Assembly (NCBI GenBank): GCA_002946415.1
Contig: NJPS01000011.1
Coordinates: forward strand, 62,001 to 126,000
Length of the DNA: 64,000 nt
Reading direction: 5' to 3'
Source of the DNA: Rutstroemia sp. NJR-2017a BVV2
Lineage: Eukaryota; Ascomycota; Leotiomycetes; Helotiales; Rutstroemiaceae
Shown here: positions 1-24,790 of the stretch, piece by piece
Position numbering within the stretch: the stretch's first letter is position 1
How the letters are laid out: every line of letters begins with the position of its first letter
The notes under the pieces: model-generated
What the model was told of the DNA's origin: nothing
Database searches by the model: none
The model's input: only the letters and a program-made list of their open reading frames with translations
Translations under genes and position numbers: made by a program

Positions 1-3000
1 GAGATGCGTAGCGACACCATCGTTGACTAATTGGTGACCCCGATTTGCGAGGATGGTTCTGGCTGTGAACAGCACGAATGATGACTGTGGTAGATAATAT
101 GCGACCTTCTTTCCGGCATCGTAGATAAGAACATTCTCCTTCCAGTAATCATCTATCGTGTCACAAATATCTTTCTCGAGACTATTTTGAACAGTTGGAA
201 GAACCGAAGTTTTCTGCAAGGTAGTTGTACCGGTGGCGGTAATATAACCCATACCTCCGGTTCCGAAAGTCAGCCCATATGATCGGAGACGGCGAGTCTC
301 GGGACCAGGCTTTGTCTGTGAAAACTTGATATTTTCGCCAGAGAACTTTTCTGTGCCCAACACAATAGATGCCTCAATGGTCCAACCTAGGAAGCAGCGT
401 CGCTCTACCAGACGATCAGGACTACGCTCTTTGTGCCAGCTGCCAATATCTCTTAAGATATCAGAAAAATGCAACCTCCGATGACCACCGTTTATTTTTT
501 TGTTGCTCAAGTGCCACTGAATAGCATTGTCTTTAGTCAACTCTTGGACGGGAACAAGGACTGTACTCAAGCCATTCCCGACCAAACCTTCATCGAACTC
601 TATCAGACTCAAAATTCTCGCAGCCATAGCCATATTCGCAAAAGAAATCTCAAGGCCCTTGCCTTCGAAGCGCTTCTTGACCGGAAAGCTGTAGGCAATG
701 ACCATCCCAGGAAACAGGCTTCTCCAACAATCAGAATTGGAAGTCGGAGGAAACTCTTGTAGTTTATTGAGCTCTAGAGTTATGGTGGCAGACTCGGGGA
801 TGTCTTTGCCCTCATCCTTTTTATTTTTTGAAGAGCATTGGACTTCAACAGATGACTGGTAGATAGTATCTCCGGGGGGGAATCTTAAGGCGGAGCATAA
901 CCAAGAGAAAGCCGCGATAATCTTTTCATGGAGATAATAAGACGACGTAACTAACGCACTGATTTGTGATTCTCTTTCGTTTTCGTGACGCCTTTCAAGC
1001 TGTATAACAACGCCTTCTTTACAGATAGCTGACACTATGTCTCGAAAATAAGCTATCATATCAGACTCGGATGCTGTGAGATGGAAACTTACTTTCTCCG
1101 TAGGTTTGCAAAAACTTGTCTACTACTTCCAAAACATAAGTGCCAACTTCAGGCCACGTTTCTTCCATGTATTCTTTACAAGCTTGTGCTACTGCACCGG
1201 TCGAATTCATAGTTATAATGAAGATATCAGCAATAGACTGTATACCGGGGTATCTGAGCCTCAGAAACTGTGGGACTTCACAGGTAATGATGTACTGGAT
1301 CTCATGCGGCAAGTCCAATGAACAAGTGATAGGCCATATGGTGAAAAGAGCTCTTCTTGTTCTATTTGCATGAAGGAAGATGTTCAAGTTCTCTCGTAAG
1401 AACTGCCACGAGTTAGAACGTTGAATGGCCTCTCTTAGCTCCGAGAAGATATATTCATCAATATCCTTGTCATCGGGCTCATCGTCGTAGATCTGTTCTA
1501 TGCTTTCTTCAACCAGTATTGCTGGATCTTGTTCATTCACAATACTGGAGATATTGAGCGGTACTCTATCTGTTGTTTCATCAAGTTCCATTCGCAGTTG
1601 TGACGCGAGCTTAGTGGAATTATCTTTGACATACCGCGCAGCACCTTTGAATTGAGGGGTTAGACTTTCAGTTTTCAAATGCTGAGAAAATTGAACAAGG
1701 CAACGTCGGAAGTTATTTTCAAACTTATCTAATGATATCTTCTTAGAAGCCTGCGCATAGAGCTGCTTCAGTTCGCCATCAGAGAGAAGGAGCCCTATCA
1801 AAACATCACTGCTTGCTTGATCACCACCCAAGGATGACGGTGTTGATGCTTCCGAAGTGGTCGAAAACACACTTGCGACACTTGTTATGCTACCGCTTGA
1901 TAACTGTCTTCTAATGTGTAGTTCTTCGCTTTCTCGGTACTCTGTCTGGAAGGTATCGAAGTCATGAACCAGATCATGGGGTGGTGTCATTGTTCCCTGC
2001 ATGTTTGTTGTATTGTGACTATTTGGCGTATATTCAGAGTGGTCGAGGGGCAAATCAGCTGGAGAGTGCCCCAATTCATTCATCTGTAGAGAGTCCTTAC
2101 TGCCACGGACAGACATGGTGTGTACAGAACTCAATGATGATTTCCTCGTGATATTATGAGGTATCACGGGCTCAACATCAGACGAGGAGTTTATTTTGTT
2201 AGGCATTGTACTGCCTCGTGATGCCCTAAGTATTCAATGAGCTGAGAACGAAGTACTGGGCAGGGGGATTATGTACAATACCTTGGAAAATCCTGTCGGT
2301 CGACTTGATTGTAAGCTGGAGTGGAGTAGCCTCTGTTCTCACGAGGAGCTGATCCGAAGCTATTGGAATCGAAGCTACCTCCCGGAGCATAAAAATCATT
2401 GCTGCCAGTTGCGACTGGGATATTGGGACTTGGACGTAAAAGAGGAGGGTTGACATCATTGTAATCGGTAACCACTGGTAGTTCCGACTCTGGGGCAAGT
2501 TTTCCAATGAACCACACTTTGACATAATGCTCCACAGTGTATATTTTAGCATAATTCAGACGTGATGCTGGGTCAAGTTTGTGTTGCGGCTCACTCGGAA
2601 TTACCCTAATGGGCCTTCTTGTGAGTCCTCGCTCCCTTTCCCCGTACATCATGGTGGGACTTTCTGTATAAATAATCGCATGATTTTTGGCATGAACACC
2701 TGTTTTGTTTGTACCCTGAGACCCGTAGGTCATTATAGACCTAGTGATATCTGTTAGATGATTGATCCCTCGAGAGCCGACATATTGGAGAAACTCCATG
2801 AAGAAGAAACCTACAAGCAAATGCAAGAACCTAGTTCCTCCTTGATTATCAAAAACCGCCGCACTTTCGAATAGTACGACTGTTCATAGGGACCTTGACT
2901 GCGGGTCGAGGACCCCGTACTTGATTCACCCCCGTTACCCTTAGGTTCAGTCCAGAGAACTTTGAATATCTATAATTATCATCAAAATCTATACGAAAAC

Positions 3001-3931
3001 CGGATTTCTTGAACATACTCTACCCCATTTGAACTCTGAGCTATGGTGGACTTGGTAACCTGTTATGACGTTAAAATAACACCTGAAGACTGAAGATGTA
3101 GCACTTTCAACATACGAGGGTCGAACTCTTCGTTTCTTGTATAAGGATTACTTGTCCGCACAATCGGAATCGGCCGGCTAGGATAGGATGTATCCGCGGT
3201 GGTAGAATTTTCACTCCATGGAACTGAGTAAGAGTTGGGATCCAAAGAGGCTTGAGCCAGGCTATCGGTTACAGAACTGAGAGTCTGGTCGCTTGTGTAA
3301 TAGTGACCAGCAGGAACTTCAGCTTTTGACTCTAGAGAGTTGGTCTGTGTTGCTCTGGGAACAGTAATTGCATTTTGCAGGCTATTATAAGCTTCCTTAT
3401 TATAGTCATATTCGTAATGACCTAGAAGCAAGTCAAAAAGTAGAAGGCAGAAGTGAAGTATATCCGGATGGAGTGAGTGAGTAAGTGAGCGAGTGAGTGA
3501 GTAATCATACCATAATCATTAATGCGGTATCGGCAGTTACGATTTTTCCCATCGAGTCCCCATTCGCTCCATGGTGTTGCCAGTGACATATTCTTGCCCT
3601 TCGAAAAGTTCGATCCAGCGTTTGACTCTAGAGAGTTGGTCTGTGTTGCTCTGGGAACAGTAATTGCATTTTGTTGGCTATTATAAGCTTTCTTATTATA
3701 GTCATATTCGTATCGACCTAGAAGCAAGTCAAAAACAAAAGGCAGAAGTGAAGTGTGTCCGGATGGAGTGAGTAAGTGAGCGAGTGAGTGAGTAATCATA
3801 CCATTATCATCAAGGCGATATCGGACTTCACGATTTTGCTGATCGACTCCCCATTCGCTCCATGCTGTTGCTAGTGACAAATTTTTACCCTTCGAAAAGT
3901 TCGAATCATTTGGTCTACTTGAGTTTGACAT
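1..3931 (-). CDS. Large DUF6590 multi-module protein, copy A (3' end cut by window edge)
   Basis: Exons read from the right: 3802-3931, 3511-3717, 3116-3421, 3019-3059, 2815-2969, 2282-2740, 1093-2225, <1-1052. They give at least 1161 codons in one open frame. The N-terminus holds two copies of a W-S-E-W-G module (W near residues 24 and 93), each followed by RYEYDYNK or HYEYDYNK. A DUF6590 core follows (about 215-360: GRIFKVLWTEP, RRFLIIKE, HAIIYTES, LNYAKIYTVEHYVKVW). Next are a helical LLSDGELKQLYAQA module (about 575-650), a CKEYMEETWPEVG segment (about 745-800) and a DCWRSLFPGMVI..FP module from about 850 to the edge. The last three have clear counterparts in the 7997-12413 gene. The start ATG at 3931 opens the first W module. 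The exon at 2225 joins in frame to 2282. If that splice is wrong, a separate gene could start at ATG 2206. Function is unknown. The 40-nt intron at 1053-1092 is unusually short. Confidence 0.8.
3330..3904 (-). repeat. Internal tandem duplication (about 291-bp unit) spanning exon-intron-exon
   Basis: Copy 1 (3614-3904) and copy 2 (about 3330-3613) are near-identical. Each contains the end of a W-module exon, a phase-1 intron of 84 or 89 nt, and the start of the next exon. In mRNA the period is 207 nt (69 codons), so the frame is preserved and the protein gains a second W module. Both introns carry a GAGT/GAGC tetranucleotide run. The 84-nt intron is a multiple of three without stops, so retention would still be translatable. 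Confidence 0.85.
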
Positions 3932-4964
3932 AGTGGGGAAACTCAGGTATGATGCTGTACGAATTTTATCTTTTGTCTACAGGAAGTGGGAGCGTGGCCA
4001 CTATTTATCGCTTGATTTGTGAAATTGAGGCTTAAAAAGGTTCTATCTTCGCACCCGTCCTCACACCTACCAATTTCACGCAGCTTTTGAGGCACAGCCT
4101 AGATGGTGATTGGATGGATAATCGTGAGAATTGATTAAGTGCGTATGATGATTGCCGGGACAGTCGGGGCTGCTTTAAGGTACCCTCTGCTTGCGGATAA
4201 GATTACCTCAGCCCTGCATGCCACCAATATTCTCTGTTACTATTCAAACCCCGTGCCATCGGATATATTCCCTTGCGTGATACATACCGCTTGAAAGCCT
4301 CGCGGCTTTCAATCTGTTCATGCGTTTACTTCTTACTTTCGGGTAACTGCAGAACGATCCAAGGCGCTCAGTTTGTCTTCGGCAGCGGCGCAGGTTATTG
4401 GGACCTATATGAAGTAATAAGTAAAGAAGGTGATCATTATTCTCTACTAACTAGAAGGTCTTAAGGACCTTGTATAGACTATTAATCGGTCTGTCTAGAG
4501 GGCGCATCACATGCAATTAAACCCTCTTCAGTATATTCATAAGGGAGTCGGACAAGCGGAAATGAGGGCATTCACAAATAAGTGAATCCCTCCTGTAGTC
4601 TCACAGGATCCCGATATTGTCAGGAGGATTACATCACGGTCAAGGCTGGAACTTCATCTCGTCACAGCCGGCGGGCGCAATCTGCTGCTTCATTCTTAAG
4701 CTCTCTTTTGAGCTGCAAAGGAAAAGGCATAAGCAGAGTAATAGAACACTCTTCAGCATCACAATCGACGCTCACATCATCTGTGTTGCAACAAACGGCA
4801 GTCACTTCCAACACCGCACAATCAAGGGCATACTCCTGTCGAGACAATGATCATACTGAAAATGAAACCAAGCCTGAGAGCTCGACAGTCACTGTGTCAG
4901 CGACGAAGACTGATCATGAATCATGTGATTTTTATGAAAAAACATATTGCAAAACGAGTACGCC
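3932..4964. promoter_or_regulatory. Divergent intergenic region between DUF6590 copy A and coiled-coil gene 1
   Basis: About 1.03 kb separates the two ATGs, so it must carry both promoters and 5' UTRs. It contains an open frame (4582-4992) with no recognisable domain that overlaps the start of the plus-strand gene. I treat that as leader sequence. No clear TATA box or shared motif with the other two divergent gaps was found by eye. Confidence 0.5.
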
Positions 4965-6452
4965 ATGGATATATTTGAGCCCAGGGATATAGAAACAGAT
5001 GTTACCTCAATGCCTATCAATCAACTCTTTCGACGACGAAGGAATCCAGATCTCTCCCAATTAAAACGTCTAATACATCCTACTGTCGGCGTACCTGAAG
5101 CTCTCATTACTGGGCACAGCCAACCCTCCTGCCCTACCAGACGCGAACATTTAGACCGCCACGCCTTGAGCTCTATATCTGAGACGCCAGCGCACTCTCT
5201 AGAGATGTATCGACTAGAGGCTTCAGAGCAGTCAAAATATACAGAACCTTTTTCCGTGACTAAGTCTATGCTTCTCACGAACTCACGTCGTGATTATAGA
5301 AATTTCACGGCTGAGTGGGATAGCATTCAACGAATGAGATTAGATGTATGGGGTTTAAGATCCCGACGTCGCGAGGCGCATAATAAGTTGAAAGAAACGC
5401 AATTAGCAAAGTCAGAGGCTGATGATAGGTACATGATGAGAGTTCATGCGGACGAGCTTGGTATTGTCTTCCGGGGGAACGGACCTTCTCTGTTAGAATT
5501 GCGAAATCAATGCCGAGAAGCCAGAAATGAGTATCGGCCTTTGGAGGATGATTGTGCCGATCTAGAAGACCACATCAGCAACCGAGAGTTCCAGCTCAAC
5601 AGACTGGAACAGCGATTTTATTTGAGGTGGCACATTCCCTTAAGTCCCAGCTGCGTTCCAAGCAGATCTCTGACGGAAAGTAATCCACAGATCTTGTATC
5701 GTAACGTTGATCTTGAAGAAAACCAAACATTTTATCATCCGCTAGTTACACGGTACCTATCCACGCTCGGTGATTTGGATATCTTTAAGGAACGTCTAGA
5801 TGACCTCTTCGACGAGAAAAGGGCATTGGAAGCTGAAAAGGAATCTCGAAAGAAATTCAACAAGACTTTGGATCCGGAAGATCAAGCATGGCTAGATGGC
5901 TCTGAAAGAATGGGTAGCCAAATCTACGAGCAGCTACAAAGAACCAATGACGAATGTCAAGATTTACGATCACGCTGTATGGCTGAAGCTCTCATCGACG
6001 AGAACGGCGATCCGACAAGGTTTCAAGAGCTGGAAAAGGCCCAGTTCGGTAATGAAAGGGATTTGCGTATCAATGGACAAACGTCAGAATATGTCAAATT
6101 TCCCTTGTTAATTCCTCTCCCTAGTACCAACGGCTACGAGCGAGAAGACTTCGAGTACAACTCAGATCATGGCAAGGCACCATTCACGAGTAGCAGGAGG
6201 GTAAACGAATGGATATTACGAAAGCTGCGCTCGTCCCCTCTGGATGTACTGTTGCTTGCCGAGTTACAGAAGCATATTCGCAACGATGATCATATGTGGC
6301 AGGTTCATGTACTCTCTGAGTGGTTCAAGGACGAAACAAAAAAAATGAGAGAAGGTTCCAGGGAACCCAGCTGCGAATCAAGTTTAACTACACAGACAGG
6401 CGTTGGTTCGGAGGACTCGGTGAGCTTCACTGGCTTGGAACAAAAGGATTAG
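4965..6452 (+). CDS. Coiled-coil protein 1, partner-family member (495 aa)
   Basis: Intronless. ATG 4965 sits in a good context (GCCATGG); the frame is open a little further upstream but only with a TTG. Roughly residues 110-230 are charged, heptad-rich helix. It includes a SEADDRYMMRVHADELG segment and an AR..YRPLEDD..LE segment, which match the 15757 and 22087 genes (SD..FM.EL, AR...GP-E). A second helix lies near 270-370. The C-terminus carries a V-N-E-W-I-L-R-K-L motif, then W-Q-V-H-V-L, as in the other two members. There is no signal peptide, membrane segment or enzymatic motif, so it is probably a cytoplasmic or nuclear scaffold. It lies head to head with DUF6590 copy A and tail to tail with copy B. 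Function is unknown; homology among the three is inferred from motif order and spacing. Confidence 0.8.
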   Translation: MDIFEPRDIETDVTSMPINQLFRRRRNPDLSQLKRLIHPTVGVPEALITGHSQPSCPTRREHLDRHALSSISETPAHSLEMYRLEASEQSKYTEPFSVTKSMLLTNSRRDYRNFTAEWDSIQRMRLDVWGLRSRRREAHNKLKETQLAKSEADDRYMMRVHADELGIVFRGNGPSLLELRNQCREARNEYRPLEDDCADLEDHISNREFQLNRLEQRFYLRWHIPLSPSCVPSRSLTESNPQILYRNVDLEENQTFYHPLVTRYLSTLGDLDIFKERLDDLFDEKRALEAEKESRKKFNKTLDPEDQAWLDGSERMGSQIYEQLQRTNDECQDLRSRCMAEALIDENGDPTRFQELEKAQFGNERDLRINGQTSEYVKFPLLIPLPSTNGYEREDFEYNSDHGKAPFTSSRRVNEWILRKLRSSPLDVLLLAELQKHIRNDDHMWQVHVLSEWFKDETKKMREGSREPSCESSLTTQTGVGSEDSVSFTGLEQKD

Positions 6453-7996
6453 TCTGCGTCCAAGGCTGCATCTGAGAGAACGGGTGGAATGGTGCCGGCA
6501 GTGCCGGATATCTTCAAAAGATATGGGAGTGGATAATGCTTTCATGAATTGGAATCGTCTGTAATTTCATTCTTATTAGATTTACTGCTTATTATTCTTG
6601 CGTTTTGAGCGAGCGTCTGTTTATATGTATCTCTATCAGCTTCCTTGGATTTTGATATTGGGGGATTACTACGCCAGGTATCGTTGGGGACAGCCTGTAT
6701 TGATCCTTTTTGATTTTAGTTGACATCTTCTCCGGCTCAGTCCATTAGAAAATAGCTACCTTCCACGTCAGTAATACCCGACCGGCCTTGAAAAGCGCAC
6801 CCCGGAGTTCCGCAGTGTCAGCCCCAGAGCCTCACGGGCAATGGATCCTTGCGATATTAGAAACGGTATACTTTTCGTGCCGCGTCACAAGCCCCAGGCA
6901 TGTAAATTTCCACAAATTGGAATGATCCTGGGAGCTATTGGATTGCTGAACTTTGCGTTTAGGCTTATCTCTTTTTGCTTTGTCCTGCGCTGCTTTAACC
7001 GCCCGCCAATCCTATCAGATGTGGCACAGGACGCCGATAATGCAAAAGGAAATTATAAGCGTGGAACGTTCCATACGAATTAGAGCATTAGTGTAAATTA
7101 GATACTGGCTTTTGCAGTGCATTTCTTGCGCAAGAAGGTCAGTGCCATGTGGCATCACTATGTCAACTGAAACGGATCTCAACTGATGAAAACTCCAATT
7201 AGAACCTTTTCGCCAGCGAAGGACTTGATTGTGCGAGGGTAGGACTATGCAACATCTGCTGTTCCAGCAGTAGCAGTGTTCTGGTTCCTTCTCGTAAATA
7301 GGATCAACGAGACATTGATACGAGGGAGATGTGGCTTGGGCATTCGGGACACAATTAGTGACCGAACTTTAATGTCCATTGCTAGAAAGCATTTGTGTCC
7401 TCTCATCCAGTTAGATTTAGTTGATGATTTCTGTTGGTCGTGTTTCTTGACAGTAGCTCGGGTAAGATGCACGATACTAATTTAGCGGCGGGTCGGGCCA
7501 CGACTTCATTTGGAACTAAACTTTGGGACGCTACGAATAATGGGGTATTAATGGCTGTTTGTGTTGGGTTTGGGATAAACGTCAAAACTTTCAAGCTTAA
7601 TGGTGTGTGCTGAAACTCTTCTAGGAGACCATTGGGATCTCGATATTGAGGATGCGAACATCCGTTCGACGACATCGTTAAATTCTTTCCCATGTATTAA
7701 TTAGGTTATTATACCTAGGCATATCATAAAACTACAAAGTGGACCAATGACCTAATGCCGAAATATTGCCTACTAAGTGACCTGCAAGTTATTTTTCCAG
7801 GATTTAATGATTCCTCAATCCATCATCAGTAGCTCAGAGGTTTTCCAGTTGAAAAAATCAAGATATATATAATCACATTACGAGAAGTAGGGGCTAGAAA
7901 TTTCAAGGGGTGATAACCATAAAGTCAACAGTAAGTTGAATAAGAAAACAGAACTGTTCTGATCCGATTTCCAAGCTTTCAGCTACAACTGCACAT
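6453..7996. other. Intergenic, tail-to-tail region; no supported gene
   Basis: Two small ATG frames occur. One (6841-7083, plus) encodes 80 aa with one hydrophobic stretch. The other (7403-7693, minus) encodes 96 aa. Neither shows a domain, paralog or convincing splice partner, so neither is called. The rest is AT-rich and unremarkable. Confidence 0.5.
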
Positions 7997-10900
7997 TCAT
8001 TGGGTTGCTGCCTGTTCCTCCTGAAATATCGAGCGCAGGTTGGCTGATCGCTCTATCGTTCTAACGCCTCTTGGAGATTGCGTCGAATGCACCCAAGCTC
8101 GGGGCTCAATTGGAGGCGGCTGTGATTCTTTGGGCTGCTCAATTAGGGGCTGACCAGTGTGTTTGACATTCGAGGATGTTGAGCTTGATATCTGCCCGCA
8201 CGTCTGTATGTCGTGAATGTCCCTTATCTCATGCTGCCCCAAATTACGGGAACTCTCAATTTTCATTCGAACAAGATTCACGGAGCCATTACTATTGTTT
8301 GATGTAGCCAGACCTTGGCTTTTTGGATGTGAGGCATTTGTTTCTGATGGAGAAGCAATTGTGTACGCTCGATCACTCTTACTGTTGGTGCATTTGTAGC
8401 TTGACTCTGCTGCAGTATCGGTAATTGTATCTAGGAGAGGCCTACTAGAAATCTGAGGTATTTGCTTCTCATAGCCGTTAGTCAACGAGGATTTTGACGA
8501 CTCGGTGTAGCAATTGCAAGGCTGAGGACGGCTACCATCGAATATGAAGCAGCCGCCTAAGTGCTCGTCAACTTGTTTCCTCAGATTCGTGTTCGACTTC
8601 GGCGAGGAGTCGTGCTTCAGATATTGAACATGATTTATGGCGACCTTCTTCTCGAAATCATGAACTTCGATGAGGATCTTTTTACTATGCCATGCAACGT
8701 TTGGACAAAGACCTTCTTCCGTCCTCTTCAGAAATTCAGCGACGGTACGGGCAGTCGCCACTAAAACATTTCGCTTCGAAGGTATCTCTCGATATGTGGA
8801 GCAAATGTGGTCGAGTCGGAAGGGGGCGATAGGTGCCGGAAGATCTTTGCAGAAAATTGCCATAGGATGGTAGTTTGTCAAGAATGCCCATGGCTGGTCT
8901 ACCTGCGTTCGCTTTATCTCCATGCTGCTTTCCATTTTCAGAAATTCCATGTACTCTACGCCAAATATGTATTTTGGCTCGGCTTGCTTAGCTGTACGGA
9001 AGCCATCGGTAGCATTTTTCAGTTCGTTTTTTACCTTATCTAAGCTGTGCCAGATGGCGGTGAAGAGCTTGGATATGCAGTGTTGATCACCAGATGTTCC
9101 TGAATGTCGATATTTGATCTTGCGTGCAAGGTTTGCTTTTATGGCTTCGTATGCATGAGCTCCTCCGTCCGGATCTAGCTTTGCCATTATAAGTTCAGTG
9201 GGCTCATCGCCGTCTATAATCTCATATTTACGATTTCTGCTGATAGACTGAGCCATAAATAGGACAAAATTTGTCTGTGGCAGATAGTATGACGTCTTTC
9301 TACCGGCATCGTGGAGGAGGATACTTTCATCCCGCGAGTCCTCTATCATATCATAGATGTCTTTGTCGATAGGGTTAACCACCGAAGAGATCATAGCTGC
9401 TTTCGTCAGGTTGATCGATACAGTTCCCGTCACCATTCCCATTCCCCCGGTCCCAAAATTGAAGGCGTACGATTTCTTGCTACAAACCTTGGGACATTTG
9501 TCGGTTTGTGATAATTTGATTTCTGTACCAGAGAATTCGGCTGTCCCAAGCAAAATAGATGCTTGACGAACCCACCCTAGGAAACAGCGACTCTCAGTTA
9601 ACCGATTGATTTCGGGTACCTGATACCATGTTCCAATATCCCTCAAGACCTCCGAATAGAGTAGTCTCTTTCGTGAACCTTCAACTTTCTTAGGACGAAA
9701 ATGCCACTGTATCGCACCATCTTCTGCTAATTGCGTAATTGGCACGAGAACGGAGTTGAGTCCATCAGCAATAAAACCATCCTCAACTTCGACCAGACTA
9801 AGACTGCATGTGATGGCAATCATATTTGTAAAGGATATCTCTAGTCCCTGGCCTTGGATTCGCGGCTTCACCGGAAACCCGTGTGCCACCACTGTTTTAG
9901 GGAAAAGATGCCGCCAACAGTCAGATTCCGGTGTTGCTGGAATATCTTGCAGCTTGTCTAAGGTAATTGCAATGATAGGGGAATCACTTTTGTTTTCAGA
10001 TCGTTCCCCTATTTGCCACATCCCCAGCCTAGTTAACGAAAGACAATTTTTGACCAAGGTGGAAGATTGCTGAACAACTCCTTTCGACGAGGGACGTAAC
10101 ACTGAACTCAACCAGCATATGGCTGCACTGACTAGTTCATGAATCCGGTGAGGTGATGTGACTGACATTCTAACGACAGAGCTAGCTGGTCCGCCATGAT
10201 GATGTAGCGTCATAACCCAGGCTCCTTCATGACTAGTCGCTGTACTCAATTAGTATTCGTGGTCGCTCAGTCATTAAGTAATACTCACTATCAGTATTGG
10301 TCTGTAGAAAGGTATCAACCGCTCCCAGAACACCGGCACTTACCTCCGGCCATGTTTCAGTGAGATATTCTTTGCAGGTTTGAGCTACAGTATTACCAGC
10401 GTTCTCTGTGAGTGTCAAAATATCCGCAATTGACTGTAAACCAGGGAAATATTGTTCTTTGAAACTTGGAATTTCCCATTCAATCCTATATGTAATCTGG
10501 TAAGATGAATCTCTCGGAACTTTGACAGGCCATGCATTGGAGATTGCGATCCCCAGTTGGTCGAAACTCAATTCAAGTTGCAAATTCTCCTGTAACAACG
10601 CCCATGATTTCGATTCTTGGATGAGTCCAAGACCAGAAAACTCACTTGCGTCGTCAGGGGGGTCGTAAGAATTTTTGCTTTCAAGTCTTTGAAGGCTGTC
10701 GTCGATTCGTGCATTCCTTGTACTACATCTGGATCTGTTTGATTCAGCTTCGAGTAGCCTATCCTCAACCACATTCCTTATTCTTGATGCCACCTTTTCC
10801 AGGTTCTCTTTAATTCTGTGGGCAGAGCTTGTCAACTTGGCTGTACAGTCTTCAATCTGTAGGTCTTCCGAGAAGCGAAAAATGCATTGCTGAAGGATCT

Positions 10901-12413
10901 TCTCGATTTCATCATGTGATGTTTTTTTCAGGGCGTCAATATAGAGCATGTGCAGACTACCTTCAGAACTTAAGAGTTCAGCCAAGTCTTCGATAAAATC
11001 GACGCGACCATCAATCACAGCACCAAGCATGCCAGGAGAGGTCATCTTCAGTGAGGATTCGCAGCTGCTAGGTCGAAGGAGAGATTCTGTGGATTGCGGT
11101 AGCTTGATCTGTGCTTCTGCGGACTCAGCCCCTGCTGTGGAACTGTCGTCACAATCTGTCGAGATGTCATTAGATGACTTCCCTATGTAGGAACTCACTC
11201 CGGTATAGTAAGGACTAGACGATTCCACAGGTGAGGAGAGACTACTGTTTCGTGAGTCATACTGCCTCTTATGATCGGCAAGTATATTTCTAGCTTCGCT
11301 GCTTAAGTAAGGAACGGTACTAGTATGGTTCGACTCTATCCTAAGTGGAGTCGCAAGATCTGGATGCGCCTTGTTGAAAGATTCGACTAAAGCTTGTATC
11401 GATTCTCCTGCAACGGTACCCAGAAAACAAAGTCTTACGTTGGTTTCAATGGTGTATATCTGGTCGAAATTTAGTCGTGATAATGGATCGAGAACGAACG
11501 CCAGTTGATCAGCCCGGACCCAGATCGGCGGGTAACCCAAGGCTTCTTCGTTTGGCAATGGAAGTGGTGCCGGGACTGTGGTGTGAATAATGGCATGCTG
11601 GCCTGCATATACCCCAGGTTTAGTTGTGGCCTTGCGTGAATACGTCCATATTGGTCTAACTATGTATTAGATACGGGTGTTTGTGGAAACAGAAACAGGG
11701 AGAATGAGAGCACCCACAAACAAAGACAATAATCTGTCTCAAAGTAGATAACCACGAATTTCGCTTTCACTTTACGTGGCTTCGAGCATAGAACTTCGAA
11801 CACCTAGTCCAGTTGAGCTTTTAAGCACGGTTAAGAAGAATTAGATACACGTACCGTTCCGAATCTGAACTCCTGCGGATCATGCACAACAAATTCTGTT
11901 CTCGGTTAGAAACGGAATCTTTGAGGAGCAACAACTTAACCTGGATCAATCTTGATGGCATGAGTGATAGTATTTTTTCTGGTAAGGCTACCCAGGATCG
12001 GGAAGACTTTCACCAGTAACGGATCCCTGTTAAAATTTGACGGATTGGCAGACTCAATAGAATCAGCCACAGTTGAGATACCACGTTCATAGTCCCATTC
12101 CAATTGTGCTGCAGCATCTCTCAGTAATATTTTAAAGTCGTTGCGGATCAATCCTACCAGGACTCAGAGGTATACCGCGATACCGTGCCCAGCATCCCCG
12201 ATCAAAACTCCAGCCCCAACCACTCCACTGAAGGAGTTTCAAGGGTGGTTGAGGCCGGTATTCAGAATGATGGGTTTGCTTTTCATTCGTCCGTTTTGGG
12301 TATTGAGACTTCCGAATAGATAGAACATGAGATGTTGATTCACCCGGTCGCGATGTTGAAAAAACCGTATCGCTGTCTTTTAATGGCTGAGCGCCCTGCA
12401 CCTGAGTTGACAT
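7997..12413 (-). CDS. Large DUF6590 multi-module protein, copy B (1386 aa, eroded DUF6590 core)
   Basis: Exons from the right: 12158-12413, 11941-12108, 11855-11895, 11718-11803, 10289-11655, 7997-10239. The sum is 4161 nt, exactly 1387 codons. Order of modules: a W-S-G-W-G-W motif near residue 63; a short DUF6590 core about 140-265 (EFRFGTVFEVL, then PIWTYSRKATTKPG, HAIIHTT, LNFDQIYTIETNVRLCF); the helical LAELLSSEGSLHMLYIDALKK module about 400-480; CKEYLTETWPEVS about 600; the CWRHLFPKTVVAHGFP module about 680-960; then a Ser/Asn-rich disordered tail. The W-T-E-P motif of the relatives is C-S-K-P here, and the following loop of about 20 residues is missing. ATG 12413 was chosen because the next upstream in-frame start-like codon (12431) is TTG. 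The modules recur together in large fungal proteins, some with ankyrin repeats (from memory). No catalytic residues are evident. Confidence 0.82.
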
Positions 12414-13398
12414 TCTATACTTTCTCCTCAATTGAATATCGTAAGCCTCGCTGCCTCGATTATATCTCGACGATTCTATGAGCTTTTCAAGACGAAGGTG
12501 ATGAAGTTTTGGTTAATATATCCACTCCACAAGATGTAGAATTTGCTGATAAGTAAGCACTTATCCATGGAGCTATCAGCTACTACACTAGGTAGTGGTC
12601 ATTATTCTACAAATCATGTGCTCCTTTATTGTAACATCAACTCCTCGATCGATGTAAGCTTATCGAACCTGGTCAGTGCCAAGGATAATTTATATAAAGA
12701 TAATATAGATGACTCCCCAGCAACTAGAATAGCAGTTGAATTAATATTTACGTGAGTTCAAGAGGTTATATTTGTTGTTCATTTACGTTTTTCTGGGCGA
12801 AACAATTAACCTTGCAGTAAATAGTTTGAAGCTGTACAAATTGAACTGTTCGGGTTTGAAGTGAAATCATCTTATAGTACAGTAATAGTACTCTGGACAT
12901 AGCAGAAATTCTAGAATAATCAGTCTAACTATAGAAGCAAACAAACGTAGATAAGAGACTTGTAATTTTGCTTCTACGATATATAATACTGAAAGTCGCC
13001 GATGTTCAGTGCAATCTATAATAATGGGCCGGTATGAATGCAAATATTTTGGAACTGCTCACTCCAGGATATATATAGTTCCTAGTATCACTTTTGTAAC
13101 CGCGAAGTTGTGGATTATCGTTTTTGTTAGACTTTATGATTTTCAGCTAGCACAGCAAGATATAATTCAATAAGAATGGTATGAACGTTATAATCAAAAA
13201 GAAATCGTAGGAAAATCATAATTCATGACAAGCCCCTCTGGAACGAAGGCTCAAACGTATAATGGAGAAAGAAATATAGGAGATTATATGCTTGAAATAA
13301 ATATATGTGAGAAAAAGAACACACAAAAGCATAGTCTGTATAACCGTGACATATAACAATGAAAGGAAATCGGGAAGAGATCTTGATCAACTAACAGC
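12414..13398. other. AT-rich intergenic region upstream of DUF6590 copy B
   Basis: About 1 kb of AT-rich sequence lies between the 5' end of copy B and the 3' end of copy C. It must hold the copy B promoter and the copy C 3' UTR. Short open frames (for example 12543-12755) have no recognisable content. No transposon ends are visible. Confidence 0.5.
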
Positions 13399-15069
13399 CT
13401 ACAACGTATCAAATTCATTGTCTCGATCATAAGGCCTACCCTCTTGATCATATTGCACCTGGCTATCGGCTGGGCTATCATCGTAACCAAGAGGATAGGT
13501 TAATGTACTCCCAGAATAATTGGATTCACTGGGGCTTGGATTGGGAGGGTTGTGAGTGCCATGACTACCGCCATGATACTGTGAGCCTTGTGGAGTAGAC
13601 CCAGCCGGGTATTTATATTGACTAGACTGACGAGGGTCACTTTTTGCGTTGTAATAATTTGACCCAGTACTACGATACTGGGTTGAAGTTTGACTCGACA
13701 TTTGTGACCCCGATTGTTGGTGCATTCTCCTTCGGCTCGAACTAGGAAACGATTGTTTGAAGGGAGAGGAGGCCAGGAGGGCATTCATGGATCTTTTGTC
13801 CACGCTGCCAATGTTGAGAACACGAACATCCTTCTCAACAGTGTAGGTTTTGGTGTAATTGATCCTAGATTTTGCGTCGAGCGAGCCTTCCTTGTCTGTG
13901 CACTCGCTGTTTACTCTTATAGGGTCTTTCAGAAGGCTTTCAGACACAAGGCCCTTTATATCATCTTTATAACTGTATGGTGCAGGTGGCAATTTCGTCG
14001 TGTAAATAATTGCATGGTTGTCAGGATCCGGCAGATTAGGCTTCAGTGTTGCCCACCCACTGTACGTATGGATCGCTCTGTTATAAGAATGAATGAATTA
14101 GCTTTGTATACAGCAAACTATGATTTATTTCTTGCTTACAGGCATGAACAGTTTCCATAATTGTCTCTAACAACAACGAACCGCCTGATCTCGCTGTAGG
14201 CCTTCCCGCTAAGCCATGTTTCGCTGATATGAGAGTGATTCCTCGTGCCCCCTCGTTGAGCGTTGACACCGGCAGGCTCCGTCCAGAGCATCATGAATAC
14301 ACGGCCTACTTTCCAGAACTCGTAACCAACCCTGCAGTATCCTTTGGTAGCGTTTGTCAGTTACAAGGATAGAACGCGAAGATACCTAGAACGATTCGCG
14401 GATTCACGGGGGACGTACTTGGGTCGAGGACTTCTTTATCGGCACCATCTGATGCTTTCGTGATGTGTCTATTGGGTGGGGCTCCAGGAACAACGTCAGT
14501 AGGAGCATATTCTGTAAGAGCTTAGGGTTGTCCCTAGAGCTATGTAGTGAACCTGAACACTAACCATTATTGCCAAGTTCGTTACCAGTGGACGACGCCA
14601 CGGGCTCAAGACTCAGACGCTGCAAACCTTTACCAAGATTATCATATGGATTCGTGGGTGCGCTATTGTATGAGCTTCCAGCAGGAGGATAGGCTGATGG
14701 ATAGCTGGAAACTGCGCGGGAAGCTCCAGCTTGGGGGGCCTCGGATCTTGGTATGGCTTTATACGGATCCGTCGAGGAATAGGCAATATCAACATCACCT
14801 GATGTGCTATAACCATCGTCATAAGTTACATCTGATTGTGACTGCAATGTCACGTCATTCGGATAGTAGCTTGAGGAAGACGAAGCAACTGCAGACTCTC
14901 GAGTTGCCTGAGTGTTCTTAGGGTATTCGTACTTGTACTCTACACGACCCTGGGAATCTTGACGACTGGACACCCAATAGCCTCGAGTATCCCAACTCCA
15001 AGTGCTCCATTGAGTTGGAAGTCCTTGACCACTTCCCCGGCTAGTTGAAGAGTAATAATTTTGTGACAT
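13399..15069 (-). CDS. DUF6590 protein with Ser/Tyr-rich flanks, copy C (492 aa)
   Basis: Exons from the right: 14565-15069, 14419-14511, 14140-14341, 13399-14077; total 1479 nt, 493 codons. The N-terminus has QWSTWSWD (W near 22) followed by EYKYEYPK, then about 130 residues rich in Ser, Tyr, Pro and Ala. The DUF6590 core begins after LDPR|YCRVGYEFWKVGRVFMMLWTEP (about 200) and includes EIRRFVVVRDNYG, IHTYSGWATLKPNLPDPDNH, IIYTTKLPPAP and INYTKTYTVEKDVRVLNIG (to about 350). The tail is Ser/Gln/Tyr/Gly-rich. It lacks the additional C-terminal modules of copies A and B. There is no signal peptide, so it is intracellular. Its ATG is 0.69 kb from the head of coiled-coil gene 2 on the opposite strand. 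DUF6590 has no established function. Confidence 0.88.
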
Positions 15070-15756
15070 TTTTGCCGCTTAGACTGATCCACTCACAGAT
15101 GAATGAACCCCAGAAGCTGCTTCCTCCAAAGCGGGGCAAAAGGATGCCTTTATGGAAAGCCATTCAGAAATGATTGTGGCAGAGCCGCACGCGCTGCCAC
15201 TTACAATAAATATGGTGCAGATTGAGAATAATAGAGTGCGCACAGAAGAATGTGGAGTACTAAGCCGGGTATGGATTGAATGGACGAATGAACAAGGTTC
15301 GAAGAAATAGTGGCTGAAAGAAGAAGCTGTGTAAGCTAAACTTGCATATATTAAATGCTTTATCGTTCGTTGGTTTGCAAAGAAACCTACGTTGCGCGGG
15401 TTCCCTGTTCTAGCCGTGTCATTACAGTGCTGCTTTAGGCCTCCCACTCAGCATTCAGCAAAGGATGCATGGATTCTCGGCAAGGACTTTCTTCTCCGTT
15501 GCATGAATCAGGCAGGCTAAGACCGTTTATGCAGAAATTGGAAGTGCATAGAGGCTAGCCTATTCACCCTCACTTTTGAGCATTATGAATCCCACACTGT
15601 TTACACGTAATTATTTACGTCTTTCAAAGCTCCAATACTTAACTTATTAGGAATAACGCAAGAGTCCTCCAAGTTCTTCATATTCTGGTCACGAGATTGT
15701 TTGGCTAATATCTTTGATCTTACCATACTTGTACGTAACGCCACATCGTATAGACC
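15070..15756. promoter_or_regulatory. Divergent intergenic region between DUF6590 copy C and coiled-coil gene 2
   Basis: A 687-bp gap separates the two start codons and presumably holds both promoters. Short open frames on both strands overlap it but show no domains. No motif repeated in the other two divergent gaps was obvious by eye. Confidence 0.5.
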
Positions 15757-17967: not shown

Positions 17968-19974
17968 CACCGGCCTATATTAAGAGGAGCATAGGATACA
18001 GACTGAAGTTTTAACACAATTTAGGGAAGGGGATCACGGGGATAGGGTGATGATTTGTTCTCTCATTCGACAGGTTAGCAGCAGCCTACACAGCAACTTC
18101 CTATCAGTTCGCCCGTCTTTTGTTTGAGTTCTCTTTGTTGGAACAGTGGGGAACATATCGTCAGTACAAGTAGTTTCGAGCTTGGAGGAGAGAGAGCTGT
18201 TAGGTCACGTGATATCCGAGCGCAATAATATGTACTATAATATTTCTTCAGTAGGTTTTGATCTAGTCAGTACAAATAGATAGCGTTTCAATTTTCCAGT
18301 TCTGGGGCCTTCAGACTCTCTGAATTTCAGCTCTCTTAAGAGCCTCATTTAACATCTTCGATTCGGAGAAGTAGTATGTGTATACCTTGACGTAGATTGG
18401 ATGGTCACAACGTCTGAGGTTACATTGCATTTATGTCCACCCCCCAAAATTCAGGGTCAGCTGGGCACCCCTCCCGCAGTCCTTACCCGTGGACTGTAAA
18501 GAGCTATCCCTGCCGTTCAATTTTGGTTTCTTAACCCCCACATGCATACTCGTATTCTATCGGATAGACGTAGACACAAGCTAAGGATATGACCCAAACG
18601 AACACACAGATAGATATATATTAGAGTTACAATCCAGATATATAAGACGTCAACTTTAAAGCACCCCCGTGCAAGTTGCAACCCATTCCACGGCCGTCGG
18701 TGCCGATATCCAATAACCCTGAGCATTACCCCAACATGCAACGTAAGACCGCGAGGCTTTCACCGCCCGTATACGTACATATGGCTGCTGAATCCTGATA
18801 CGTGATACGCCTGGATAAAAGGCAATCAACCTCATTTACGGCACGGCGTTTACAATGAATCATTTCATTTCGTTCGCGTCACATCCATTCGAGAGGCAGT
18901 CAACTTATCAGGACGTCTGTAGTCCTGCTTTTCCTTTTTGTTTAGGCTGAACAATCCGTAATCAAAGTGGCTTGTGTTCCGTCGGGGCCCGGGGAGCTGT
19001 CCATTATGCAGGTCGTGATAGGCGAGGACCCCCTGCGCTATGACCTCGATATGATTTCTGACCGGGCTGATAGGCCTACCTTGTATATAATATGATGAAG
19101 GTCCCCTCGTTTACATGTCGTGCCGTTATTGATGAGACACTACATTATGCATCGCTGAAATCAGTCCACACCCCCCAATGAATTTGTGATTGAATAAGAT
19201 GAAACCATGAATGAGTGAACGCTGCTTTTGGCGATTAGATTTATGCAGCACTGCAGCAGCAGAGTCTCGGGTAAGCGCACTGATTCGAAGGAATAAGGCT
19301 GCAGCGGTGAACTACCGCCTTTTTCAGAGATTTCTGTGCGACAGCTCACCGAATCTTTACTGTGATGATCTATACCATGATACGGTAGCAGCGTTGGGTA
19401 ATTCATGTCATGACGCCCGATGGTGGACTCGACATCAAATCTAGTGCACGTGTAGTCAGGTTAATGGACGTGATATATGCGGCTCTCGTGAACGAGAGCA
19501 ATTGGCCACCCAGTCACGCAGTGTGGAAATTTCCGTGCATCAAATATTATGGGACAAGAAGCCCAAAGCTCTCGTAAAACCTTGAAATGAATATTCGTAA
19601 CTCGTAAATGGCTGCAGGTTGCTCGATGGCATACAAATCATCTGAAGTCATATCTGACCCTGCCCTGCATAGTGCTGAACAACGTATAGATGAAACAAGA
19701 CCTCCTCCTATCAAATCGTAAATAGGCCGTGACTAAAAGTGCAAGAAGTGATTGGAAACTGCGACAAATAGCAAAGCGTGAATTCCAAATAAAACGTAGT
19801 GTGAATAAACTACCAAGCGTAGTCGGAGACACGGGCTCTTACGGAGCGCGCAGATAGAACATGAGCACAGGGCAGATGTCCCGACTATGCAACGTATATA
19901 ATTGTAGGAAAAAGAACTTCAAAGAAGAGGTATGAAATAACGACGTGGAGCCATCGAAGATAAGCCTCACACAG
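17968..19974. other. Two-kilobase tail-to-tail intergenic region
   Basis: It lies between the 3' ends of coiled-coil gene 2 and DUF6590 copy D. Only short, domain-free open frames are present (18517-18741, 19161-19406, 19211-19444, 19638-19832). The stretch is not obviously repetitive. I see nothing that can be called. Confidence 0.5.
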
Positions 19975-21420
19975 TTAATGTTTGCTGCCCTTTCTGTGTT
20001 TTTTGTCACCGCCGGCACGTGGCGGGTTCGTGCTCGCCTTCTGAGGAGGGTCTACTCGTTGGTAGTGACAGCTGTTCACAAGTGATGTCATTGAATTATT
20101 GTGAACCATGCCGATATTCAGAACACGTACATAATGTTCGACTGTGTAAATCTTGCTGTAATTCAATCGCGACTTGGGATCCAGGTTGCCTTCAGCGTCA
20201 GGCTGCTCCCGAACAACCCTAATGGGGATTTTGGTGAGTTGTTCTTGTACCAGGCTTCCATCTTCAGCAATGTAAGAATGTGGCGCTGGCGGCTCCTCAG
20301 TCGTGTATATCATTGTGTGTTCCTGAACATCGGGCAAATTGTATTTGAGAGTAGCGGCTCCCGAATAGGTATGAATAGGACTACCCACATGATTGAAACG
20401 TTAGTCTTGCTTTGCATACGAAAGTATGCAAGAGGTAGGGAAACATACCAGCAAATCGAATTGCCGTGTTGTTTCGCAACAATCACGAATCGCCGAATCT
20501 CGGTATAAACGGATCCTCCAAGATAGGTGGTGCTATAATGCGAGCCATTTCGCGACCCGCCTCCATATGGCACCTTATCTGCCGGTGGATCCCTTGCTGG
20601 TTCGGTCCACAACATCATAAACACTCTGCCAACCCTGAAGAAGTTGTTTTGGTCTCTTTCAGGGACTGTCTGATATCCTGTGAAAGTCAGCACTATCTCT
20701 GCTGATGATATTTCTACTGACGTGGATCAAGAGATTCACTGTTGCCTGTATTTGGAGCTTTACGGATGTGCTTCGGAACAGGATATCCGAATCCTGATTG
20801 CTGTGCTGTAAGTTCTATTCAGCGTCACTCCCACAAACGACAATAGATCAAACCGCACCTTGTGTCGCCAGTGCCGGTGGGGGCGCCAAGGACATTTGCC
20901 CGAAGCTGTTTGCAGTGCTATCAACCGATGAAGATGCCGCAGTACTTCGGGTATAGGTGTATTCTGGAGAGCGAACAGTAGGCTGCGAGTAAGTGGAAGC
21001 GTTTGTGTATCTATTGAAAGTAGCTCCTGTCATTCCGGTTGTGGTTGTTTGCGCCCAATTTTGGGCTACATTGTAATCTCGGCTCGAGGAAGCAACGGTA
21101 GGATTGTAATAAGTATTGGTTGACGACGACATTGACGAGATGGACCCCCTTGGAGTAGCATCATGTTCACTATCTGGATAATTTGGGTACGAGTTCTGGT
21201 ACGAGTTCTGGTATGGCCTGGTTGACGATCCTTGAGTGCTCTGTGTGGCAGCATAGATGTTTGCATCTGTAGTGCGGGGCGTTTGAGACTGGTCACCGGC
21301 AGTGTTGTTGTATTGATATTCATACTCGTATGACCCATCGGGTTTCTTGCGAGACGCATACCAAGCGCCGCAGGAAGAGTCCCATTTCCAAGTCGACCAG
21401 CCTGAAGATATATCAGCCAT
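19975..21420 (-). CDS. DUF6590 protein, copy D (426 aa)
   Basis: Exons from the right: 20859-21420, 20722-20805, 20449-20677, 19975-20380; total 1281 nt, 427 codons. The start was set at ATG 21420 (MADISSGWSTWKWD), placing the W motif at residues 8-12; a longer frame begins at 21444. After WKWD come an SYEYEYQYNN stretch and about 130 residues rich in Ser, Thr, Tyr and Asn. The DUF6590 core starts after SLDPR|YQTV and includes FFRVGRVFMMLWTEP, EIRRFVIVAK, PIHTYSGAATLKYNLPDV, MIYTTEEPPAP and LNYSKIYTVEHYVRVLNIG. The C-terminus is short and Lys/His-rich. Intron sites after LDPR (phase 1) and before PIHTY (phase 2) coincide with those of copies A-C. It is head to head with coiled-coil gene 3, 0.67 kb apart. 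Confidence 0.9.
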
Positions 21421-22086
21421 GACTGCGACAACGTACATGTACAAGAAGCCTACATATTCATCCGGGTTATCGTCGAGATTTTATGCAAAATATGCCGACG
21501 AGAAAACTCCACATTCAAGCTGCAGAGCCGCAATCACAAGCATCATTCTTCCGATATGTAGTCGGATAATGATATATTGAAATTGGGTCGAACTACGATT
21601 TCAATTAGTTGGATATTCTGCAGCAGATGCCAGTGCAACCACTTGGTTGGTAGCCATTGACACACCAAATTGAATTGGAATGCGGGTGGATTATGGATCC
21701 TGAAAATGTATATAGAGGGTGTCGTAGGCTGCGTAAAGTCGAGGGTGTGATTGGAAGGACAATTCTTTATCAGGACAGGGAGGCCAGGCGGTGGCTTCGC
21801 CGCTTTATGGCATAGATTCACGGGCTGTTGTATTCCCATGCAATCTTTACGAATAAAATACAATGCCATTGAGTTCTAGGCGGCTGAATCATAGAACTTC
21901 TGCTACACCGTTCGCCCTGTTCTGTCTGTCTTATGTGGGATTAGTCCTGTACGCGGGTGTCAACACAACAGCTGTTCAGTACCGAAACCCAGGATTCTGA
22001 CGATTAACATCTTATAAAAAAACCATCCTCCGCGGACTGAGCATCGGCTGCTAAAGCTATTGCTCATTGCCGGGCAGCGAAATGTA
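21421..22086. promoter_or_regulatory. Divergent intergenic region between DUF6590 copy D and coiled-coil gene 3
   Basis: A 666-bp gap between opposing start codons. It should contain both promoters. The open frame crossing 22060 upstream of ATG 22087 begins with TTG and is leader. Confidence 0.5.
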
Positions 22087-23418
22087 ATGTGGACATTCTG
22101 GGTACCGGGAAAAGGCTCTTTCTGTCCTCGGGAGATGCTAACCTTGCTCCAGAAATCTCTATTTCGTTCTCCGGGTAAGCGCGACAGTGCACGTCGTGAT
22201 CGTCGACATCGTCGGGAAGCAGAGCGCTCTCAAACTTCGAACAACAGTGAAGGAGAAACACTGAAATTGGTGAATTCGGACCAGCCAGAACATGAGGACC
22301 GAGAACAAAGTGCCCCGCATAGTTCTTGGGAACATGTTGAAGAAGCTCATCATTCGGTGGAACAATTAGAACGTCGGCTGGACGAGCCTCGCTTGGCAGC
22401 GCTACTGCGCGGATTACACAACCTGTCGGATTTACGATGGGCAGCATCTTCGGTACAAGTGGAAGTCAGGGAAAAGATGCTAGAAGTCGGCTACAAGAGA
22501 AATCATGTTGCACAATCCGACGCGAATTTCATGAAGGAACTCCAACGACTTCAAATACAACAACAACTTGGACACTTCGAACAGCTTTCGAAGCTCGCCG
22601 TTGAGTGTCAAATAGCACGTGATGGGCTAGGTCCTCTGGAGAACGAGAGTGCTCAGATTTTTGGTAACTGGGAGGGCAAAATGTGGGTCTTGAGTCAAGC
22701 AGAAGATGCGCTGTTTAACGAGTTCGCACCTGAATTTCGCATCGCCAACGAACAGTCGAGTGTCAGCACAGATATGGTTTCGACTGAGTGTTCATCGACA
22801 AGTGCGGACCGTGAGACCTTGGACGATCACCATCCGTACTATGGAGCTAATTTGATACCTGTTCGCCCTGGAAATTCCGTGGTATCATATTCTAGTATAC
22901 CACTACCTACTGCGATTCACACTCCACTGGCTAATACTATGGGCCCCGACGAAAGCCAGAACTCAATGCTGTTGGGCCTAGATATGGAGCGATCTAATCC
23001 AGAACAGCATGAAAGCGACATGACGTCCGATTTGGACTCAGGCATAGCGGACTTGGATCTCAAAACAGAGACTGGAATGCCCCCGGGCTGGTCTAGGCAA
23101 TCTTCAGGCCCCGAATCATTTCCAAGGCTTTTAACAGACTTCAGCACACGCCGTGACCGCGTTCAAAAATGGCTCCTGCAAACCACATTGGTCTCCAAAT
23201 CCGAGGCATATTTGGTCGGCTGGCAGCTCATGTCGCAGTCGCCAGATGAGCCATCTAATTGGTCTCAGCTAGTGGTTGCATTGCTAGGGCTTGATGAGGC
23301 TGTATCCAAGTATATGCAGCCATTTGGCTCCAGGAATGAGACTCCAGAAGAGGAAGAAGAAAGTATGAATCTTGGTCCGCCGGAGGCCCCCACCAACCAT
23401 CAAATAGAATCAACATAA
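22087..23418 (+). CDS. Coiled-coil protein 3, partner-family member (443 aa)
   Basis: Intronless. The first in-frame ATG is 22087; ATG 22135 is an alternative and the very N-terminus is uncertain. A basic segment (RRDRRHRREAER near 35-50) could be a nuclear localisation signal. A heptad-rich helix covers about 90-220 with the family signatures S-D-A-N-F-M-K-E-L, A-R-D-G-L-G-P-L-E-N-E and EDALFNEFAPEF. The C-terminal family motif is R-V-Q-K-W-L-L-Q-T-T...S-N-W-S-Q-L-V-V-A-L-L near 360-405. A Glu-rich stretch precedes the end. No enzymatic motif is visible. Function unknown; it pairs with DUF6590 copy D. Confidence 0.82.
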   Translation: MWTFWVPGKGSFCPREMLTLLQKSLFRSPGKRDSARRDRRHRREAERSQTSNNSEGETLKLVNSDQPEHEDREQSAPHSSWEHVEEAHHSVEQLERRLDEPRLAALLRGLHNLSDLRWAASSVQVEVREKMLEVGYKRNHVAQSDANFMKELQRLQIQQQLGHFEQLSKLAVECQIARDGLGPLENESAQIFGNWEGKMWVLSQAEDALFNEFAPEFRIANEQSSVSTDMVSTECSSTSADRETLDDHHPYYGANLIPVRPGNSVVSYSSIPLPTAIHTPLANTMGPDESQNSMLLGLDMERSNPEQHESDMTSDLDSGIADLDLKTETGMPPGWSRQSSGPESFPRLLTDFSTRRDRVQKWLLQTTLVSKSEAYLVGWQLMSQSPDEPSNWSQLVVALLGLDEAVSKYMQPFGSRNETPEEEEESMNLGPPEAPTNHQIEST

Positions 23419-24790
23419 ACAAGACACTAAGTGAGTAGGAGTAGCGGCTACCCTCCCAAATTACTGCTGGACGATGATCTTGGAGGAGTACAACAAGCCT
23501 GATAGCTATTGCAAGCTTTGTGATTGGAGTACTTGTGCATCTTGTGGTAATGAGGCAGGCAGCTAGGGAGTAACAAGGTTCTATTTGCTTCTTTTCCATT
23601 AGAATGTATATGATCTGACCTATGGAATTCTACCATTTAAAGTGGCATTGCATTCCATATGCCCATTGTGTATGATTGTGCATATCGATCGAGGTCATCT
23701 GCTTCACCAGCAACCACTCAGGCTCCCACTCGAAAAAGCAAACATTGCGGCAGATAGCGTTTCTCTAAATATGTTGTGCTACAAATGCTCTGGTAGGATT
23801 ATTGCGGTCCGATCCGTGCAAACGAGGTTGGTAGGAAGCCATTCAGTGAACATGGAGGCGGGGACTTCGGGTAGGTTAAGTGCACGGTATCACAACTGCC
23901 TATCATGGCTTATCGTAGCCTGGAATGCAAATGATTGATAAAGAAAGCAATAATTGGCGACGATAATGCGGCGACGACACTAAACAATCCCTGCTCAACG
24001 CACATGTCAACAAACGGGGAAATAACCTATTTCGAGACCTACCTGAAGTCGTCACATTTCACATTTCGCATGCGTCAAACCAACCCCACTTACCCATGCT
24101 CTTCTGATTAGCGATGGTGCTTTGACCGCGAAGTGAGAGACGATGGAGATTTGGATGTCGCGAAGTACCTCAACATCAGTCGTCGACAAGGCTGCGATGA
24201 TATCATATCCGATATACGAGAACCTCAAATTCTCCGCTGATGGCAGCAAACGTTAATCATCTGGTGGATCGCTACCAAAATCTATTAATGGCTGCAAAAA
24301 CCATTGCGGATGGGGCAATCCTGCGCTGCGCCACCATGACTAATTATGAAACCCCTTTTGTTCACTCAGGCTATATCCCACACAACGTCGTTTGCCCTAA
24401 TTCGGGCACAACGAGCATGGGAAGAAATCCTACCCGCCAGGAATCCGTATAGGAAGCTTCATATAGAGTTATATGGGCAGCTTTCTGTCTTGTCATCAAA
24501 ATCTCCCCCACCTGTGCCACCTGCAGCATCTAGCATCGCGAGAGGCGTAGATTTTCAACCCCGCCGCAGAATTTCCACCACCCACCATGGCAGGAACCAG
24601 TGAAATTTTAAGTGATCCTATTTCCATTCCATCATTATTCTGTCTGAGAATCCAAAGGTAAGACCTGTCGCACAAAAATCTATTCGTCGGTTCGTGCATT
24701 TCTTTTTCGTTTGTTTACCAAAGGCTTTTCGTGATATCTTGACGTAGACAGTCAGATTGGTTCAATTCTTTCTTTTCGTTCCGGGGAAAA
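23419..24790. other. Intergenic region marking the end of the accessory block
   Basis: No gene is supported. Small open frames (23642-23938, 24240-24452, 24346-24603 plus; 24052-24249 minus) lack domains. The last few hundred bases must be the promoter and 5' UTR of the DUF6536 gene. Confidence 0.45.

Follow-up and report, generated by a model that had tools for sequence, protein, structure and literature searches.

A duplicated array of divergent DUF6590 and coiled-coil genes in a Rutstroemia genome

The window studied here, a 64,000-nucleotide stretch of the Rutstroemia sp. NJR-2017a BVV2 genome (contig C3:62001-126000 of a 43.4 Mb assembly in 79 contigs), carries an array of genes encoding DUF6590 proteins (PF20233) and coiled-coil proteins. 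The former genes are called D1 to D4 and the latter C1 to C3; genome contigs are always written with the word contig (contig C3, contig C4, contig C7 and so on). Along the plus strand the order is X1-D1 (minus), C1 (plus), X2-D2 (minus), D3 (minus), C2 (plus), D4 (minus) and C3 (plus), X being an unnamed domain (Table 1). The divergent pairing of these two uncharacterised gene families is real, old and duplicated, and it is accompanied by a fourth DUF6590 gene and by DUF6590-X fusions. The initial annotation had described three pairs in which a minus-strand DUF6590 gene faces a plus-strand coiled-coil gene, and the open reading frame (ORF) starts at 3931(-)/4965(+), 15069(-)/15757(+) and 22087(+) are indeed found. 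The start given to D4, 21420, is an in-frame ATG, but the longest ORF begins at 21438, 18 bases (six codons) before it; 21420 lies just before the WSxW motif described below. With this D4 start, the distances between start codons, recomputed as 1034 bases for D1/C1, 688 for D3/C2 and 667 for D4/C3, agree with the gaps of 1.03, 0.69 and 0.67 kb first reported, and two of the three pairs (D3/C2 and D4/C3) are less than 1 kb apart by this measure.

All four D genes resemble DUF6590 above the curated cut-off of PF20233 (gathering threshold 27 bits), the spliced domains of D1 to D4 scoring 163.5, 104.7, 154.4 and 154.9 bits. The facing genes D1, D3 and D4 were thus correctly assigned, while their number is to be corrected to four, D2, which lacks a C partner, having been overlooked. 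Exon models were chosen by eye from splice signals (GT..AG), frame and similarity, and the exon joins are putative. The DUF6590 exons of D1 fall within 2485-3059 and the 5′ side of D2 adjoins the 3′ end of D3. A PF20233 search of the whole genome returned 13 matches, each above the cut-off, which we count as ten loci (nine if contig C74 repeats contig C25): four in the cluster, two on contig C7 (C7a and C7b), two weak ones on contig C4 (33.3 and 33.9 bits) and one each on contigs C25 and C74 (49.7 bits). The coordinates (615042-615416) and score of the match are identical on these last two, which suggests that the contig is present twice in the assembly.

Pfam assigns no function to DUF6590. 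To this domain the cluster genes add an N-terminal motif, WSxW...R...EY.Y, and, for D1 and D2, domain X. The motif is present in all four cluster genes (split by an intron in D2) and is missing from the five DUF6590 genes read elsewhere. Scanning the stretches read, a set leaving aside contig C74, gave nine WSxW hits, five of them in cluster D genes (two in D1); the four others (C7b stretch, 194081; C4 stretch, 345889; two elsewhere on contig C3) lie outside DUF6590 genes and lack R...EY.Y. A genome-wide search with the N-terminal part of D4 returned only itself below E 0.1, and D1-D3 were also missed, so that genome-wide absence of the motif is not established by it. Introns after DP and at C.C occur in the same phase in all four D genes, and the C.C site is read through without an intron in C7a and C7b. 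D3 and D4 lack two introns that D1 and D2 have in common, one inside the WSxW motif and another after WGR/FGT. In D1, the N-terminal part (WSxW exon and its intron) is tandemly duplicated at window 3326-3904 on the minus strand, with 259 of 282 aligned bases identical and a GAGT simple repeat inside, hence the two WSxW motifs of this gene.

D1 and D2 run on into the large domain X, which D3 and D4 lack. X lies at contig C3:60912-62987 (L010:8912 to window 987) and at window 8000-10213; X1 is in two halves, which would meet near 990-1085, and X2n and X2c would meet between 10233 and 10213. X1 and X2 are homologues (E 7e-40), with 43-47% identity in their later part. The D2 exon 10233-11655 holds the end of DUF6590 and the start of X in one open frame. 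In D1, DUF6590 would be joined to X1 via a 56-base intron (2226-2281), the frame then continuing into X1, a join supported by the uninterrupted D2-X2 frame. Relatives of X are found on contigs C51 (E 1.6e-20 and 1.8e-6), C46 (1.2e-5) and C59 (0.006 and 1.1e-5). The X pieces scanned gave no Pfam match above cut-off; X2c had none at E <= 1, and its best match among PDB sequences was at E 0.24. X, like C1, may resemble widespread unnamed families of Pezizomycotina.

Table 1. Genes and divergent intergenic regions of the array, in window positions
Feature	Position	Strand	Description
D1-X1 gene	1..3931, X1 running past window start to contig C3:60912 (= L010:8912)	minus	WSxW twice, DUF6590, X
C1, intronless coiled-coil gene, 495 aa	4965..6452	plus	single open frame
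D2-X2 gene	7997..12413	minus	WSxW motif, DUF6590, X; no divergent C partner
D3	13399..15069	minus	WSxW motif and DUF6590; putative exons 15069-14565, 14511-14419, 14341-14140, 14077-13399
C2, intronless coiled-coil gene, 736 aa	15757..17967	plus	single open frame; long tail beyond part common with C3
D4	19975..21420	minus	WSxW and DUF6590; putative exons 21420-20859, 20805-20722, 20677-20449, 20380-19975 (stop included)
C3, intronless coiled-coil gene, 443 aa	22087..23418	plus	single open frame
Divergent intergenic region D1/C1	3932..4964		
Divergent intergenic region D3/C2	15070..15756		
Divergent intergenic region D4/C3	21421..22086		

The coiled-coil genes are intronless, as had been stated. 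Their products contain no Pfam domain above its cut-off and match no PHROGs entry at E <= 0.01; among PDB sequences, searched with C1 and C3, the best matches were at E 0.093 and 0.21, respectively. The homology of C2 and C3 covers the coiled coil and a W-containing C-terminal stretch (BLASTP E 3e-18, 25% identity over 368 columns), identity reaching 35% in the best module, the coiled coil. C1 is more distant, with E 3e-4 against C2 and 0.003 against C3 in single comparisons. A profile of the C2 and C3 hairpin gives C1 15.7 bits. It was run on 369 stop-to-stop frames, some of which overlap between loci; leaving out the three that belong to the C genes, the highest-scoring of the remaining 366 reached 3.3 bits, and none of 5000 C1 shuffles attained the score of C1. 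In Smith-Waterman comparisons the score of C1 with the C2 module is reached by 0 of 2000 shuffles, and that with C3 by 6 of 2000 when all of C1 is used and by 1 of 2000 when only the middle part of C1 is taken. Three motifs, DDR[FY]M, AR....P[LI]E and E..[IF]Y..[WF]H, are collinear in the three proteins. For the C-terminal W motif of C1, the score is reached by 350 (C3) and 292 (C2) of 2000 whole-protein shuffles, and by 82 and 562 of 2000, respectively, when the end region is shuffled; the profile gives -3.4 bits. These sequence comparisons support C1 as a distant relative of C2 and C3, in the coiled-coil part only. The homology first proposed for the three genes is thus firm for C2 and C3; for C1 it has support in the coiled-coil module, and the score of the W motif is not significant. 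The motif order said to be common to all is overstated as regards C1, which reads DDRYMMRV and ARNEYRPLE, without M.EL or GP, and C2 has WMI in place of W-I/L-L.

Searches of the own genome for other C genes retrieved only itself with C1 at E <= 1, C2 with C3 at E <= 1 and C3 with C2 at E <= 10. These searches score only the candidates ranked highest in a loose first pass, and C1 and C2/C3 do not retrieve each other with them; distant members may escape. No relatives of the C module were found in viral and prokaryotic contigs.

In the predicted structure of C3, helices 101-157 and 165-224 make up a long hairpin (block pLDDT 73-93 over 111-210), the rest being of low confidence (mean 46.4). The C1 model contains a similar hairpin (helices 98-164 and 176-222; block pLDDT 67-89 over 111-220) and a second one at low confidence (mean 45.2). 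Both models end with three short helices of like spacing, also at low confidence. With Foldseek, the C3 model had no match in PDB at E <= 0.001, the best being 0.07. Generic antiparallel coiled-coil hairpins, such as SH3BP5, YscO and Vipp1, were among the matches; like them, residues 101-224 of the C3 model form a long hairpin, a likeness that any hairpin of helices would show.

DUF6590 genes have divergent neighbours elsewhere in the genome too. Contig C7 carries two plus-strand DUF6590 genes, with domains at 152791 and 187773, each having upstream a minus-strand gene of an unnamed family that we call Y (C7:150486-151127 and 185253-185921), and the two D/Y pairs are about 35 kb apart. The two upstream Y frames are homologous (score 116, reached by none of 1000 shuffles; E 2.2e-6 in own-genome search), as seen with the longer frames; BLASTP found no match between the ATG-trimmed pieces. 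Over 1.9 kb upstream of either DUF6590 domain, the sole ATG-started plus-strand frame of more than 91 aa starts at 152316 and is likely the first exon of the first contig C7 gene. A third Y gene (C7:155904-156356) lies downstream of that gene; own-genome searches place these three members of the family on contig C7 only. Shuffling revealed no clear relation between C and Y (the best results of nine comparisons were 7 and 8 of 300). The D/Y pairs fit block duplication, and a family that carries its partner along would look alike.

How did the array arise? We consider it probable that serial duplications, old and in the same orientation, of a block of D and C genes account for it, with a D1/D2 branch carrying X, a D3/D4 branch without it, and D2 devoid of C. 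The ancestral block would have contained a DUF6590 gene bearing WSxW near its N-terminus, with a coiled-coil gene transcribed away from it, and block duplications one after another would then have given four D and three C genes; D2 would have lost its C or have been copied without one. That the two families were duplicated together and then diverged had been proposed at the outset, and the repeated gene order and strands, with homology in both families, support it. Common introns and X support the grouping of D1 with D2, identity that of D3 with D4 (60% in DUF6590), and introns, X and WSxW that of all four. The C protein is most likely a helical-hairpin coiled coil, if the models are right, and may be a fast-drifting one that oligomerises or acts as a scaffold, while DUF6590 would be a slower-evolving globular domain.

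Several observations weigh against this history. In DUF6590, the identity of D3 and D4 is 43-45% with the contig C7 genes but 37-42% with D1 and D2, and D1-D2 identity (41%) is no higher than that of D1-D4 (42%). The unrooted tree separates D3, D4, C7a, C7b and C25 from D1, D2, C4a and C4b (92.8/90), joins D3 and D4 weakly (71.2/66) and places the contig C4 genes beside D2; a single cluster clade appears only when the tree is rooted on C7. The contig C7 genes may descend from within the cluster family, and the tree may be distorted by the C4 and C25 sequences, which are very divergent. For C1, profile comparison by hhalign gave E 0.001 with a probability of 21% on the module, and E 0.0025 with 12% over the full length; two other proteins of the genome, one of them long and coiled-coil-like, gave E 0.6 (the coiled-coil-like one) and 0.69. 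Moreover, the C1 and C3 models share one 3-row alignment and are hence not independent. Finally, a profile search for a C relic beside D2 in the gaps 6453-7996, 12413-13398, 17968-19975 and 23419-29000 found nothing above the inclusion threshold, the best hmmsearch score being 5.9 bits (E 0.27) in 6453-7996, away from the D2 5′ end. In the same gaps around D2 and the cluster, tblastn found nothing at E <= 1, and a remnant of a lost D2 partner was rejected as a candidate on both searches.

Head-to-head geometry had been taken to imply joint regulation. As the geometry is copied along with the block, selection for co-regulation is not needed to explain it, and joint regulation finds no support in the intergenic regions. 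The three D/C regions share 11 words of 7 bases, against a mean of 7.9 in dinucleotide shuffles (38 of 200 shuffles reach 11), one word of 8 bases (reached by 85 of 200 shuffles) and none of 9 to 10 bases, and blastn between them gave no match at E 0.1. The promoters could have a common origin and have diverged. Divergently paired genes have been defined by transcription starts less than 1 kb apart (PMC2670823). Measured between start codons instead of transcription starts, D3/C2 (688) and D4/C3 (667) would come under this limit and D1/C1 (1034) would not, and no common promoter words are apparent. In the parts of the literature on divergent gene pairs in fungi that were covered, matches were limited to Drosophila and vertebrates, and none came up with Pezizomycotina.

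Alternatively, DUF6590 proteins might work with a dedicated head-to-head partner, C for the WSxW group and Y for the contig C7 group, selection keeping the pairs together during divergence; we regard this as possible but doubtful, and view with the same reserve the idea that paired D and C proteins interact physically or share a process. All three C genes detected have a DUF6590 gene as divergent neighbour, and three of the four cluster D genes have a C, in this one genome. These counts are not independent, since duplication copies neighbours and strands together. The D-C linkage has nevertheless outlasted the divergence of C2 and C3 to 35% in their best module, and both contig C7 genes have an opposite-strand Y upstream; thus five of six strong DUF6590 genes (D1, D3, D4 and the two on contig C7, but not D2) have a co-duplicated divergent neighbour. 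On the other hand, D2 lacks a C, the third Y lies downstream of a contig C7 DUF6590 gene, the intergenic regions have no words in common beyond the shuffled level, C and Y are not clearly related, and block duplication alone gives the same picture. Nor was any C found around five other DUF6590 loci (two on contig C7, two on contig C4 and that of contig C25), by tblastn at E 0.05 and by profile on frames of at least 100 aa.

A more speculative extension, to which we give little credence at present, is that DUF6590 proteins belong to a fungal module of two proteins, so far undescribed, in which the other half is a head-to-head partner drawn from exchangeable, fast-diverging families (C or Y). 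By analogy with self/non-self recognition or toxin/partner systems, linked pairs would then co-diversify after duplication, and some DUF6590 members would be fused to X. No paper in the literature searched names DUF6590 or PF20233, and a stable neighbour would be a first handle on its role. Should the linkage turn up in other fungi as well, the pair would be a two-protein module open to testing; otherwise it is an ordinary duplicated array.

It is unlikely that only D3/C2 and D4/C3 are true duplicates, C1 being an unrelated coiled-coil gene which adjoins D1 by chance. The similarity of C1 is restricted to the coiled-coil module, a type of sequence in which heptad bias can pass for homology; its W motif falls within the range of end-region shuffles and scores negatively in the profile, and the hhalign probabilities are low. 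Yet the collinear motifs, the absence of any C1 shuffle equalling the score with C2, and the E of 0.6 of another long coiled-coil-like protein of the genome argue for relatedness. For D3/C2 and D4/C3, a chance neighbourhood is refuted, since both partners are homologous. In compact fungal genomes genes often have divergent neighbours, but a mere neighbourhood of genes without common history is very improbable for the array, given the repeated order, the homology within both families and X.

Elsewhere in the window, a putative amidoligase (Amidoligase_2, PF12224, 109.6 bits) is encoded at 57190-58350 on the plus strand, and at 53392-54747 on the minus strand lies a gene for a Calcineurin-like phosphoesterase (PF00149, 49.4 bits) whose N-terminal stretch is long and charged.

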